DNA of 64,000 bases from an uncultured Candidatus Peregrinibacteria bacterium (GTDB lineage: Bacteria > Patescibacteriota > Gracilibacteria > Peribacterales > Peribacteraceae), in the NCBI GenBank assembly GCA_903854335.1, contig CAINVY010000005.1:62001-126000 (forward strand), read 5' to 3'. The notes below the pieces were generated by a model. The model was not told the origin of the DNA. It ran no database searches and saw nothing but the letters and a program-made list of their open reading frames with translations. Each line of letters opens with the position of its first letter. The first letter of the stretch is position 1. Made by a program: the position numbers and the translations under genes. Below are positions 26,289 through 38,838 of the stretch, piece by piece.

Positions 26289-26322
26289 TTGGTAGAGGCG
26301 TGACAAGTCACGCCTCTACCAA
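26289..26322. repeat. palindrome between tuf and rpsJ
   Basis: TTGGTAGAGGCGTGA, loop CAAG, perfect 15-bp complement. It resembles the GTAGAG..CTCTAC palindromes spread through many cyanobacterial and CPR genomes; it could also attenuate read-through into rpsJ. Confidence 0.7.
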
Positions 26323-26347
26323 GTATTGTTCTTTCCCTCTCCCGCTT

Positions 26348-26821
26348 ATGACTCCCGCATCCAAGAAACCCTCTCCCAAGAAGCCGGCGAAATCCGCGCC
26401 GAAGAAGGAGACGACGGACGTGAAAGTCAAAGCACATGTTTCGACGAAAGCAGAGAAGAAGGTGAGCCACGCGAGCACTGCTACCGCGAAGCCGGACACA
26501 AAGAAAGAGCCGAAGGTCTCTGTGATCCGCATCCGCCTCTCCGCGTTCGACCATACCGTCCTCGATGAGGCGGCCATGAAGATCGTAGAGACGGCTGAGC
26601 GATCTGGCGCCATCGTTCACGGCCCCATCCCGCTCCCCACTCAGATTCGCAAGTTCACCGTGAACCGCTCGACGTTCGTCCACAAGGACGCGCGCGATCA
26701 GTTCGAGATGCGCACGCACCGCCGACTCATCGATCTCTCCGAGACGACCTTCAAGACAGTCGAAAGTCTCCAGTCCCTCAGTCTTCCGAGCGGAGTTGAT
26801 ATCGAGATTAAGATGGGGTGA
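26348..26821 (+). CDS. rpsJ: 30S ribosomal protein uS10 with long Lys-rich N-terminal extension
   Basis: 157 residues against about 103 in most bacteria. The first ~55 residues are Lys/Ala/Pro-rich ([16 protein letters not shown]...). The S10 core starts at [13 protein letters not shown] and contains [38 protein letters not shown], a clear uS10 signature. It follows tuf by 64 nt with a palindrome between. The usual next gene, rplC, is absent: a small hypothetical gene and then rnc (opposite strand) follow. Confidence 0.95.
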
Positions 26822-26831
26822 AATACCTTTG

Positions 26832-27044
26832 ATGTCACTCTATTTTGTCCGTGATTCTGAGCCAAAGACACGGTTTCATGATGGCTCTACTATCGGTTCA
26901 ATGTTAAGGCAGCAAGGTCTTTGTGTTTTAGCAACCGAAGTAGTTGCGAAGATTGATGTGTCTGACGAGGAAATCGAGAAGATTCGCCGCGCTCTAGCAG
27001 CGAAAGGTCTGACGCTGTTGGTGCCAGAAAAGAGTAGTGATTGA
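26832..27044 (+). CDS. small hypothetical protein
   Basis: 70 residues (MSLYFVRDSEPKTRF...), starting 10 nt after rpsJ, so probably co-transcribed. Predicted alpha/beta with an acidic helix (DVSDEEIEKIRRALAAKGL). More AT-rich than rpsJ and lacking any family I know. Confidence 0.5.
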   Translation: MSLYFVRDSEPKTRFHDGSTIGSMLRQQGLCVLATEVVAKIDVSDEEIEKIRRALAAKGLTLLVPEKSSD

Positions 27045-27101
27045 TGTATTAGTGCAGCTTCAAAATTACATGAAACTCTTGTCCTTCTTTCTCAGGGCTC
27101 T

Positions 27102-27476
27102 TCTCTTTCTTTGTTAAGCGCGACAAAGAAAGAGAGAAAGAAAACGCTGGCGCGCCGAAGCCCATCATACGGCTCTGTGCCTCCGCTTCGGCTGCTCCAA
27201 GGCTTCGCAGCCGTCGCGTCGGCGTGGTGTCCGCCTGTGGCGGACACAGAGCCTTGCCTCCACTTTGAAGAACTTGTTCTCGTAGAGTATGCAAAAGGCG
27301 CGCGAATCTGAAACGTTGTTTATGTTCTGTTCTACAGAAAAACAAACAACCAACACTCACAAAGCCGGAGCGCGCAACACGGGGTGGAATAGTTTTTCAG
27401 AGGAAACATTCTACGAAGCATTGTTGCGCGAGCACTTTCTTTCCGCCTTTCTTTCTTGCCCTGAGAAAGAAAGGCG
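27102..27476 (+). repeat. R2: full-length copy of intergenic repeat family R
   Basis: Fills most of the gene-free stretch 27045-27537. It opens with the hairpin TCTCTTTCTTTGT / complement (27102-27114 / 27123-27135). It then matches the minus strand of R1 for long stretches, has the hairpin TGTCCGCC tgt GGCGGACA and the long-range stem GCGCAACA (27372-27379) / TGTTGCGC (27422-27429). It ends with the 13-bp hairpin CGCCTTTCTTTCT / complement (27444-27456 / 27464-27476). Just before it, 27083-27097 looks like half of another terminal hairpin. It sits between the tuf-rpsJ transcript and convergent rnc. Confidence 0.75.
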
Positions 27477-27537
27477 ATCCCTCGTCGTCTTGGGAGAGAG
27501 GGGACAAAAATCACATCAAGGCGATGTCTCTCACGAA

Positions 27538-28230
27538 TTATTTCCACCCCTTCACTATCAACGCCTCCTTCGCGGCAGCCTGCTCCGCGCGCTGCTTGCT
27601 GTTCCCCGTCCCCTGCGCGACTTTTTCCTCACCGATAAAGACCGCCGACGTAAAGTGTTTGTCATGATCCGGACCGTCTTCCTCGATGACCTCATAGTGC
27701 GGCGTAACGCCGACTTTGTCCTGCACGATCTCCTGGAACATGCTCTTCTCGTCCTTGTCCTTGCCGGCGGCGAGGAGCTTGGTCAGATCCTGTAGGATAA
27801 ACTCCAAGCAAAATTCCTGCGCCACTTCGAATCCGCGATCAAGGTAAATCGCCCCGATGAGCGCCTCGAGCGCGTTGGCGAGGGTCGATTGCTTGTTGCG
27901 ACCGTCGCTCGCCTCTTCGCCACGGCTCATAAAGAGATACTCGCCGAGCTTCAGCTCCCGAGCCACGTCGGCAAGGTGGCTGCCCTGTACGAGTGCGGAC
28001 CTCCAGTTCGTCAGCTCCCCTTCCGGCTTAGTCGAGATGCGAAACAGGTACTCCGTTGTCACGAGCTCCAGCACCGCATCACCGAGAAATTCCAGTCGCT
28101 CGTTATTGCCGTGTGCCCGACTCTCCCTGGCGGCAGAACGATGCACGAGTGCTTGCAGGAGCAATTCCTTATCACGGAAGAGAACGCCGATAGCATTCTC
28201 GAGGACAGTGTAGGAAACGGGAGCGGACAC
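27538..28230 (-). CDS. rnc: ribonuclease III
   Basis: 230 residues, full length. Double-strand-specific endonuclease for rRNA and mRNA processing. The signature NERLEFLGDAVL (about 43-54) carries the catalytic Glu and Asp; ANALEALIGAIYLDRG is the second conserved block; a double-stranded-RNA-binding domain follows (FQEIVQDKVG...AEQAAAKEAL). The start is GTG, with TACACT (complement 28237-28242) ending 6 nt upstream. Confidence 0.97.
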   Translation of the reverse strand: MSAPVSYTVLENAIGVLFRDKELLLQALVHRSAARESRAHGNNERLEFLGDAVLELVTTEYLFRISTKPEGELTNWRSALVQGSHLADVARELKLGEYLFMSRGEEASDGRNKQSTLANALEALIGAIYLDRGFEVAQEFCLEFILQDLTKLLAAGKDKDEKSMFQEIVQDKVGVTPHYEVIEEDGPDHDKHFTSAVFIGEEKVAQGTGNSKQRAEQAAAKEALIVKGWK

Positions 28231-28271
28231 GAGGTTAGTGTAGGAGAGGAAGATGATGATGAGAAGAGGTC

Positions 28272-28676
28272 CTACTTCGCGTGCGCAATCGCATTCAGCA
28301 CTCCATTCACGAATTTTCCTCCTTCTTCCGTCCCGTACTCCTTTGCGATTTCGATCGCTTCGTTCATTACCACGGCGGCGGGCGCGTCGCCACCGAAGAG
28401 CAGCTCATAGGCCCCCACGAAGAGAATAGACCTGGAGATGGGATCCATACGTTCCATGGGCCACTGTGGAGCATGCGTCTGCACCGCCTCCTTCACTTCA
28501 TTCTCACGCTCAAGCACGCCTTTGAGGAGACTCTCCGCGAAGGGAACGTCCAACTCACCCAATCCCTTCGCGTCGCGTAGGAGCGTCAATTCCGGCTCCG
28601 GCAGCGCTTGGCGCTTCTCGCGCTCGAAGAGCACTTGCATGACAGCGATGCGCGATAGGTGACGTTTCCTGGCCAT
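28272..28676 (-). CDS. nusB: transcription antitermination protein NusB
   Basis: 134 residues from ATG 28676 (MARKRHLSRIAVMQVLFEREK); this start begins the NusB domain directly, whereas an in-frame ATG at 28715 would add 13 unlikely residues. NusB with NusE (S10) binds boxA of rRNA leaders. Conserved MDPISRSILFVGAYELLFG and NEAIEIAKEYGTEEGGKFVNGVLNAI are present. It precedes rnc on the same strand. Confidence 0.95.
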   Translation of the reverse strand: MARKRHLSRIAVMQVLFEREKRQALPEPELTLLRDAKGLGELDVPFAESLLKGVLERENEVKEAVQTHAPQWPMERMDPISRSILFVGAYELLFGGDAPAAVVMNEAIEIAKEYGTEEGGKFVNGVLNAIAHAK

Positions 28677-28727
28677 GGGCTGCGGGTATGGTAGAGGTTT
28701 CTGAGGGATTCTCAATGGGAGGAATTC

Positions 28728-35180: not shown

Positions 35181-35354
35181 ATGTGGCCCTTTCGTCGGAA
35201 ACGAGAAAAGGAGAAGACCGGCATCGCAAAAAAGATCGTCGTCGGTCTGATCATCGGCGGCGCCATCACATCGATCATCGGCAAGAAACTCCTCGAGACA
35301 AAGGAGCACGAGCATGACGAGGACGATCACGCGGCGAAGAAGAAACACGAATAA
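35181..35354 (+). CDS. small membrane protein with charged ends
   Basis: 57 residues: basic N-terminus (MWPFRRKREKEK), one membrane span (IVVGLIIGGAITSIIG) and a His/Asp/Glu-rich tail (EHEHDEDDHAAKKKHE) that may bind metal. TACAGT ends 7 nt upstream of the ATG. Too short for family assignment. Confidence 0.55.
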   Translation: MWPFRRKREKEKTGIAKKIVVGLIIGGAITSIIGKKLLETKEHEHDEDDHAAKKKHE

Positions 35355-35723
35355 TAAAAAACCCCGCGCAGGGCGCGGGGTTTGGTCGCTTACCGCAGAG
35401 GGTAAGCAGGACGCACTGCGACTTTCAGTGCATTCTCCCTACCCTTCGCACGATTGGAGAGCGTGCGGCTCGTGTGTGTTTGTATAGGCAGCCCGAGTGC
35501 TCGGGCATCGGCCCCACTGAATTCCGTGGGCGAGAGTTTTGTGTTTGTTTCCTTCGCAAGAAGCGAAGAAGTCGAGATCCCTCACGGAGTGAGGAAACCT
35601 CAGGTCGCGGTAGTCGGTATGCCGCGGAGAGGCAGGGAGGGATGGGAAGCGAAAGAGTCATGTGGTGTCGCTTCTCGTCTCTCCCTGCCAAAGGGTTAGG
35701 GCGAAGTTTTCCAAAGAGCAAAT
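35351..35723 (-). ncRNA. candidate structured RNA, class unknown
   Basis: The 440-base gap before gmk has, on the minus strand, a promoter (35758-35730), about 370 nt without a convincing gene, and an intrinsic terminator. The transcript can form at least seven local hairpins: GGCAGGGAG/CTCCCTGCC, CTCAC/GTGAG, CTTCGC/GCGAAG, CCCAC/GTGGG, GCCCGAG/CTCGGGC, CGCACG/CGTGCG, GCACTG/CAGTGC and GCTTACC/GGTAAGC. I looked for and did not find tmRNA (tRNA-like ends, tag), RNase P (P4 core) or SRP domain IV motifs. Size would suit tmRNA or RNase P, so a divergent member of either is possible. Confidence 0.6.
35355..35381 (-). terminator. intrinsic terminator of the candidate RNA
   Basis: Minus strand ACCCCGCGC, CCT loop, GCGCGGGGT, then TTTTTT. 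The T-run exists only on the minus strand, which fixes the direction. Confidence 0.8.
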
Positions 35724-35729
35724 CTCACC

Positions 35730-35758
35730 AGTATACCTTAAATTCTCTCTCGTGGCAA
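35730..35758 (-). promoter_or_regulatory. promoter of the candidate RNA
   Basis: Minus strand TTGCCA (35758-35753), 17-nt spacer, TATACT (35735-35730). Start predicted near 35723. Confidence 0.7.
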
Positions 35759-35822
35759 TCCGCAACTACGGCGCCCTAACATGCGGTTTTTCTCTTCGAA
35801 AAGCTTCAGGTACCATGCCTCC

Positions 35823-37143: not shown

Positions 37144-38838
37144 ATGGCTCATACATGCATCACGTGCAAAGCGGCTTATGAGATTTCACCGACGGAACTG
37201 CAATGGTACGAACGCGTTGGCTTCGCTCCCCCCGATGTTTGTTTCATGTGCGATCAGAAACATCGCATCTCTTTCCGCAACAGCCGCAAGCTCTACCACC
37301 GTACCTGCGATGCGACGGGACAGAACATCATCTCGATCTACAACAAAGATCTCCCGTACAAAGTGTATCGAAGCGAATCATGGTATGGCGACGCGTGGGA
37401 TGCGACCGAGATGGGAAGGCCGTTTGATTTCTCCCGTCCGTTCTTCGAACAGTTTCGGTCGCTGGATCTCGCAGTCCCCCGTCTTGCGCTCAACAACGTC
37501 AATGCGGAGAACAGCGATTACTGCAACATGACGTTCGGGAATAGGAACTGCTACCTCGTCTTCGGCGGGGACTTCAATGAAGATGTCATGTACGGAACGC
37601 TCTGCATGCACAATCGCTCCAGTCTGGACATCGATTTCTCGAATGAATGCGAACTCTGTTCCGACATCTCCAACAGCATCGGCTGCTACGCATGTCGCAC
37701 CGCCTTCGACTGCAAGAATTGTTTCGAGTGCGCCTTCGTGAGCGACTGCACGGGCTGTAAGAATTGCGTCCTTTGCACCGACCTCGTCCAGAAATCGTAC
37801 TGCTTGCGTAACAAGCAACTCTCGAAGGAAGAGTTCGAGCTCCAAACCGCCGCGCTGCGCAGCGGCTCTTTCGCGGCGGAAAAAGCCTGCCGTAGAGAAT
37901 TTCAATCTATGCTCGCGGGACGCGTCGTGAAAGCGGCGCACAACATCGCCTGCATCGATTGCACAGGCGATTACCAACAGAATTCCAAGAACTGCATCAA
38001 CGCATTCGACATCTATGAATCGGAGGATCTCTGCGACGTGATCTACGCCAGCAAGTCGAAAGATTGCTTCCGATGCAGTCTCCTCGGAAACGATTCGGAG
38101 CTTTGCTACAGCCTCCTCTCCAGTCTCAACGCCAAGCAGTGTCGTTTCTGTAACTTCGTCATCGATTCATGGAATGTCGATTACTCGAGCTTCGTATTCA
38201 ATTGCCAGAATGTCTTCGGCTGCGTGGGGCTGCGGCGAAAAAAGTACTGCTTCCTGAACAAGCAGTATGAAAAGGAAGAGTACGAGGCGCTCGTGCCAAA
38301 GATCATCGAACACATGAGGAAGACCCCCCTTCGCTCCTCCGGAGCTTCGGAGGGGCAGGCCGGAGAGTGGGGCGCATACTTCCCCAAATCATTCTCGCCA
38401 TTCTCCTACAACGAATCATCCGCCATTGAATACTTCCCGATGACGAAGGAAGAAGCGTCCATCCAAGGTTTCGGCTGGCGAGAACTGACCGAAGAGCTCG
38501 CGGGAAGCTCCGGCATGAAGACTCTTTCCGCCTCCTCTCTCCCCGATAATATTGAAGACGCTGGAGACGACATCCTCTCTGCCGCAATCGTCACGGAAGC
38601 ATCCGGCCGCCCCTTCCGCATCCAAAAATCCGAATTGGAATTGTATCGAAGAATGCATCTTCCGCTCCCTCGCCTCCATCCCGACGAGCGCTACCGCCGA
38701 AGGAAGACTCAGCGCAATCCACGCTCACTCTGGAAAAGGAAATGTGCCAAATGTGCCAAGGAGATCGAATCGACCTACGCCCCAGACCGTTTGGAAACTG
38801 TCTATTGCGAGGGATGTTATTTGAAGGAGATGTATTGA
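37144..38838 (+). CDS. very Cys-rich repeat protein with terminal zinc ribbons
   Basis: 564 residues. N-terminal CITCKAAYEI...CFMCDQ and C-terminal CAKCAKEIESTY...CEGC look like zinc-binding treble clefs. The central 350 residues carry more than 30 Cys in a regular pattern (NCxxC, CxxCxxC: FDCKNCFECAFVSDCTGCKNCVLC), including twice a YC(L/F)xN KQ(L/Y)xKEE(F/Y)E motif at about residues 219 and 362. Such proteins recur in CPR genomes under uninformative names. The spacing suggests a solenoid with Cys ladders, perhaps binding metal. TATACT ends 8 nt upstream. Function unknown. Confidence 0.75.
   Translation: MAHTCITCKAAYEISPTELQWYERVGFAPPDVCFMCDQKHRISFRNSRKLYHRTCDATGQNIISIYNKDLPYKVYRSESWYGDAWDATEMGRPFDFSRPFFEQFRSLDLAVPRLALNNVNAENSDYCNMTFGNRNCYLVFGGDFNEDVMYGTLCMHNRSSLDIDFSNECELCSDISNSIGCYACRTAFDCKNCFECAFVSDCTGCKNCVLCTDLVQKSYCLRNKQLSKEEFELQTAALRSGSFAAEKACRREFQSMLAGRVVKAAHNIACIDCTGDYQQNSKNCINAFDIYESEDLCDVIYASKSKDCFRCSLLGNDSELCYSLLSSLNAKQCRFCNFVIDSWNVDYSSFVFNCQNVFGCVGLRRKKYCFLNKQYEKEEYEALVPKIIEHMRKTPLRSSGASEGQAGEWGAYFPKSFSPFSYNESSAIEYFPMTKEEASIQGFGWRELTEELAGSSGMKTLSASSLPDNIEDAGDDILSAAIVTEASGRPFRIQKSELELYRRMHLPLPRLHPDERYRRRKTQRNPRSLWKRKCAKCAKEIESTYAPDRLETVYCEGCYLKEMY

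Follow-up and report, generated by a model that had tools for sequence, protein, structure and literature searches.

A conserved structured RNA of Candidatus Peribacteraceae with a boxA-like element and a covariation-supported closing helix

INTRODUCTION

We know of no bacterial structured RNA, besides rRNA precursors and CRISPR arrays, that has been described with a boxA and a closing helix next to it. For E. coli rRNA synthesis, one proposal is that the NusB-bound boxA keeps hold of the leader strand until the trailer has emerged (PMC10250234). The gamma-proteobacterial boxA consensus is GYTCTTTAANA, and non-coding RNAs were, by the authors' own account, not considered in the corresponding survey of boxA targets (PMC5725501). 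Among CRISPR arrays, the boxA of Legionella reads GTTCTTTAAAA (PMC7862264). Our literature search returned no paper on noncoding RNA in Peregrinibacteria, nor one on structured RNA and Rfam in CPR.

Here, we describe an RNA of ~370 nt encoded within a 64,000-nucleotide stretch of DNA from an uncultured Candidatus Peregrinibacteria bacterium, the whole of which is referred to below as the window. Comparison with related genomes shows that it is a real, conserved, covarying, single-copy RNA with a predicted promoter, a boxA-like element, a predicted closing helix, and a predicted terminator.

RESULTS

Transcript limits and non-coding status

The structured RNA lies on the minus strand at 35355..35724 (the 5′ end is approximate), and the likely transcript runs from ~35724 to ~35355, with a G+C content of 57%. 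The first-pass annotation of this DNA had proposed a minus-strand promoter, TTGCCA-N17-TATACT, and a terminator at either end of a non-coding interval of ~370 nt with at least seven hairpins, and all of these points were borne out. The −35 element TTGCCA (35753..35758, minus) and the −10 element TATACT (35730..35735, minus) form a putative sigma-70 promoter with 10/12 matches; it is the sole such site in 35300-35800, where shuffling predicts 0.2, and relatives mostly have a −35/−10 pair before the boxA. The intrinsic terminator (35355..35383, minus) consists of an 11-pair stem at 35383-35359 followed by T's, and it may also end a convergent small plus-strand ORF whose last base is 35354. On the other flank lies gmk (plus strand, start at 35781 or 35823).

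Minus-strand folding gave −158.5 kcal/mol versus −116.6 ± 4.9 kcal/mol for shuffled sequences (z = −8.6), and the predicted fold has eight or more hairpins and, in addition, a long-range closing helix. The plus strand of the locus is also structured, but less so (z = −5.6). Relative to the sister species (G001), the RNA shows 17 gaps, most of them of 1 nt, and 30 substitutions spread evenly (9/12/9) over codon positions, and the open frames differ between the two. Protein coding was rejected on the basis of these 1-nt indels and unbiased codon positions; the conserved protein coding in relatives that the first-pass annotation had named as evidence against an RNA did not appear in this comparison.

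Architecture and covariation

From 5′ to 3′, the order is promoter, boxA, 5′ strand of the long-range helix P1, H1, H2, H3, a variable hairpin, an A/C-rich linker, H4, H5, a second A/C-rich linker, H6, 3′ strand of P1, H7, H8, and terminator, all on the minus strand. The 5′ strand of P1, CGCCCTAACCCTTTG (35689..35703), is predicted to pair with the 3′ strand, GAAGGGTAGGGAG (35435..35447). H1 (35631..35689) is a long hairpin with an invariant base, GCAGGGAG/CTCCCTGC, and a variable loop that spans 38 to 200 nt among relatives. The predicted fold further places H2 (35606..35627; CGCGG...CCGCG, kept in close relatives), H3 (35573..35603; conserved motif GAGGTT.CCTC...GAGG.ATCTC), a lineage-variable hairpin (35551..35571) that is missing or far larger in relatives, and H8 (35388..35407). 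H4 (35511..35531), H6 (35448..35466), and H7 (35412..35432; TGCACTGAAAGTCGCAGTGCG) each show compensatory changes in alignment A1, and H5 (35491..35512; CCGATGCCCGAGCACTCGGGC) is 100% paired in 16 members, with an outermost pair of five types. Both linkers are predicted to be unpaired: linkers similar to the first, AAACAAACACAAAA (35537..35550), recur in relatives, and the second, ATACAAACACACAC (35472..35485), is among the most conserved unpaired segments and has no other exact match in the window.

Since RNAalifold gave a poor consensus on an automatic MAFFT alignment, the helices were tested singly. For P1, the mean duplex energy over 25 members was −16.9 kcal/mol for cognate strands versus −13.7 ± 0.5 kcal/mol for swapped, non-cognate ones, and 0/20,000 permutations were as good, with kinship ignored. 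A wider test on 49 members, whose windows take in part of H1, agreed (0/20,000). Indeed, P1 changes on both sides, from CCCUAACCCUU/AAGGGUAGGG in the window to CCUGUCUUAU/AUAAGACAGG in L011 and CCUCACUCU/AGAGUGGGG in L012, and its sequences are wholly different in L011, L012, L020, and L061; such independent forms argue against shared ancestry alone as the source of the P1 covariation. The stem extension of H1 covaries as well (z = −9.3 over 32 members, kinship ignored). In H4-H7, 83.2% of cells are paired versus 26-47% when slid by 1-3 columns, and 50 cells carry double changes versus 19.6 in shuffles (0/500, kinship ignored). Covariation thus supports, at the level of sequence, a long-range helix next to the boxA that would close the whole domain, as in rrn precursors.

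The boxA-like element and rRNA leaders

The boxA-like element GCTCTTTGGAA (35709..35719, minus) stands at about +5 of the RNA, with P1 directly after it, and was recognized from the clade consensus, the 16S leaders of the clade, and the published boxA consensus. As would be expected of a boxA-dependent transcript, a GYTCTTTAANA-like sequence is therefore present near the predicted 5′ end; the window's copy differs from the clade consensus GYTCHTTNAMA at one position and is missed by the strict pattern. Among 59 places examined, two of which (G086 and G092) appear on inspection to be spurious, GYTCHTT follows a sigma-70-like promoter in 49, usually with a spacing of 5-6 nt and a GATT-like lead. 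This core was the selection criterion and the bases beyond it were unselected; at the unselected positions 8-10 (n = 49), A occurred in 30/49, A/C in 42/49, and A in 43/49, which yields GYTCHTTNAMA. In addition, the sampled family loci contain 75 promoter-like sites; 25 have GYTCHTT no more than 18 nt downstream, and the RNA described here accounts for 24 of the 25.

In six family genomes, the 16S leader contains GYTCHTTCACA (four exactly, two with one mismatch) right against the strand AGCATCGTGTAGTAGAGAA, and the partner strand of AGCATCGTGTAGTAGAGAA was found beyond the 16S gene in 4/6 genomes, at −37 to −45 kcal/mol. In these leaders (L069-L074), the boxA directly adjoins the leader-trailer helix or overlaps with it, and therefore rRNA and the RNA at our locus share a layout of boxA followed by a long-range helix. 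Two further observations were made at these loci. Downstream (3′) of the 16S gene in L070, another promoter-like site is followed by GCTCTTTTGCA, which is possibly a second boxA transcript. The 16S match in L074 (G015) spans 1702 bases versus ~1470, which points to an intron or other insertion within the gene.

A single NusB gene is present in 8/8 genomes, and nusB lies 5-11 kb from the RNA in 6/8, those that have both on one contig. In the window, NusB, the putative boxA binder (28272..28715, minus; PF01029, 2.9e-30), and ribosomal protein S10 (NusE), its partner on boxA (26300..26821, plus; PF00338, 3.9e-32), are both encoded, as a boxA-dependent transcript would require. Together with the RNase III gene (27538-28230), they form a cluster (26300-28715) at 7-9 kb from the RNA. 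This neighborhood is suggestive of a link with the RNA, as a hint rather than a proof. Elsewhere in the window, 37144-38838 (plus) encodes a cysteine-rich protein of 564 aa that has no Pfam match above the cut-off.

Comparison with known RNA families

The whole window was searched with the 4227 covariance models of Rfam 15 at gathering score. None of the 4227 families reached it at the locus, and window-wide only four tRNAs did. Relaxed thresholds gave only terminator-type and simple-hairpin matches at the locus; anti-hemB, Leu_leader, and microRNA families were rejected because their alignments cover just the terminator and simple hairpins.

The first-pass annotation had seen no hallmarks of RNase P RNA or tmRNA and had proposed searches with the models of these two and of 6S and SRP RNA. 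Its reading is upheld, and an Rfam match that would have made this a known RNA is absent: at the locus, neither RF00010 nor RF00013 gave a covariance-model match, tmRNA was found neither with RF00023 nor with ARAGORN, and RF00169 and RF01854 (SRP RNA) had no match even at E 10. The RNase P RNA of the same genome lies at G000:C13:11733-12127 (RF00010, 172.6 bits) and its tmRNA at G000:C5:155344-155751 (RF00023, 99.2 bits). A 6S RNA candidate (RF00013) that scores 28 bits, below the cut-off, lies at G000:C13:76841-76992; it is likely a real, diverged 6S RNA because five relatives show single matches of 34-40 bits. Since the genome has these three RNAs elsewhere (6S as a weak candidate), the RNA at our locus is not one of them, and all four identities, SRP RNA included, were rejected for want of a model match at the locus. 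As regards SRP RNA itself, RF00169 and RF01854 match nothing in G000, G002, G003, G007, G014, G015, G020, and G025, while the controls ring; this RNA may have been lost or become very divergent in Peribacteraceae.

Distribution and genomic context

A DNA similarity search found relatives at 73-85% within the genus and in patches across the family; the named relatives are Candidatus Peregrinibacteria, Peribacteria, and Peribacteraceae. From 16 members, our own locus included, we built a covariance model (R1) that covers the 3′ part of the RNA; against the window's genome, which supplied one of those members, it scores 123.7 bits. R1 gave one match per genome in 56/74 Candidatus Peribacteraceae genomes and in 47 of the 57 good ones, and several genomes without a match are incomplete assemblies. 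In G009, the 5′ end of the RNA falls at a contig edge, and G031 has a weak match under laxer filters, with promoter and boxA present.

Outside the family, ~270 genomes of the phylum gave matches only at E 0.0015 or worse, none beside gmk or the asparaginase gene, and we judged these to be chance matches for both reasons. Under laxer filters, 23 genomes of the same class gave nothing better than E 0.01. By these searches, the RNA appears confined to Candidatus Peribacteraceae, with no convincing match found beyond it.

The first-pass annotation had also pointed to the region upstream of gmk in relatives, and there the RNA is indeed conserved: gmk and/or an L-asparaginase gene adjoins nearly all fetched loci, including the weak ones (L121-L124). 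In most genomes, the RNA is divergent from gmk. In L094 and L120, it is turned round relative to gmk and asparaginase and lies upstream of gmk on the same strand, and therefore it constitutes an independent unit.

Collectively, these data support the structured RNA of the first-pass annotation and extend it: the boxA, the long-range helix P1, the A/C-rich linkers, and the confinement to a single family were all absent from that annotation. It had named two options, a strongly diverged essential RNA and a new class; the conserved, covarying, and single-copy character of the RNA favors the latter branch.

DISCUSSION

With slightly more confidence than doubt, we lean towards the explanation that this is a new structural RNA specific to Peribacteraceae, an independent unit with its own promoter, which relies, as rRNA does, on a NusB/S10 antitermination complex for its synthesis and folding. 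Synthesis by the rRNA machinery is suggested because the RNA starts with an rRNA-type boxA and a similar closing helix. Under this model, NusB-S10 would bind boxA once it has emerged from RNA polymerase, and the resulting antitermination complex would keep Rho from stopping the untranslated transcript. The complex would also keep the 5′ strand of P1 tethered for the ~240 nt of synthesis before its partner strand appears (longer in relatives with larger hairpins). P1 would then close the domain, much as pre-16S rRNA is closed by its leader-trailer helix. Subsequently, the mature RNA would most likely act in trans, as an RNP scaffold or a regulator, with the A/C-rich linkers as binding sites. 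We put forward only tentatively, and with somewhat more doubt than belief, the fuller proposal of a housekeeping RNA particle found only in Peribacteraceae, built by the rRNA machinery (boxA, NusB-S10, the closing helix, and perhaps RNase III) and acting in trans through those linkers. The weakest part of the model is the job that we favor from the architecture, namely, that of a trans-acting RNP scaffold for which the conserved A/C-rich linkers would be the contacts.

The main rival, which we consider rather unlikely, is that an abundant boxA RNA serves as a decoy for NusB-S10 and lowers their supply to the rRNA operon, with the folded body just stabilizing it. At the 5′ end, no feature is more constant than the boxA, which is close in sequence to the rRNA boxA of the clade; nusB is nearby in the six genomes that have the two on one contig; and in E. 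coli, Nus factors are titrated by a NutL-bearing RNA when it is transcribed at a high level (PMC4807359). However, a decoy would have no need for a conserved body of 250-500 nt in which P1 and H1-H7 covary and the linkers are conserved. The conserved neighborhood could also be read as cis control of gmk or the asparaginase gene by a leader, attenuator, or antisense RNA, but the orientation to these genes varies and in the window the RNA points away from gmk and has its own terminator, so we regard this as improbable. A gmk leader or riboswitch was rejected for its wrong direction in the window and the variable orientation among genomes.

A strongly diverged known housekeeping RNA is very improbable in our estimation, given that RNase P RNA and tmRNA sit elsewhere in the genome. 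SRP RNA is the sole remaining candidate because none was found in these genomes, and RNAs of CPR can score below model cut-offs (PMC8172020); yet, in addition to the failed search at E 10, the SRP domain IV motif was not seen by eye, and the covariation follows a different architecture. Finally, the minus strand does hold a 98-codon ORF with a TTG start, but a protein-coding gene, or a palindrome-rich spacer arisen by chance, is barely credible in view of the indel and substitution pattern relative to the sister species and of the strong covariation and conservation.

If a new structural RNA built by the rRNA machinery is the correct reading, a near-universal RNA would be added to a bacterial family with minimal genomes, and rrn-style transcripts, which include rRNA and CRISPR arrays, would gain an RNA particle as a third kind. 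It would also offer a short natural model (~370 nt vs 1500) of how Nus factors, as proposed, act in the closing of long-range helices.

How does this RNA compare with known systems? Like an rrn precursor, it has a boxA near the 5′ end and, right behind it, the first strand of a long-range helix with a structured domain inside, and the boxA consensus is common to it and the 16S leaders of its clade. Unlike rrn, it is a short unit of its own beside gmk, with its own terminator and no rRNA match, and its boxA is at about +5 rather than far into the leader. 6S RNA, which titrates RNA polymerase, is likewise single-copy with its own promoter, and a decoy role would be analogous; its architecture is different, however, and the genome has its sub-cut-off 6S candidate elsewhere. 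OLE, ROOL, and GOLLD are similarly long, multi-branched, conserved, non-coding, and lineage-confined, whereas the RNA described here is shorter and has no Rfam match; to our knowledge, no boxA has been described for these three. It shares with CRISPR array leaders a boxA on a non-ribosomal untranslated transcript (PMC7862264), but no repeat-spacer array was seen at the locus, which encodes a single folded RNA. As a family, the RNA belongs to none of the described classes tested; the way in which it is made seems to be borrowed from a known system. Its newness is at the level of the RNA family.
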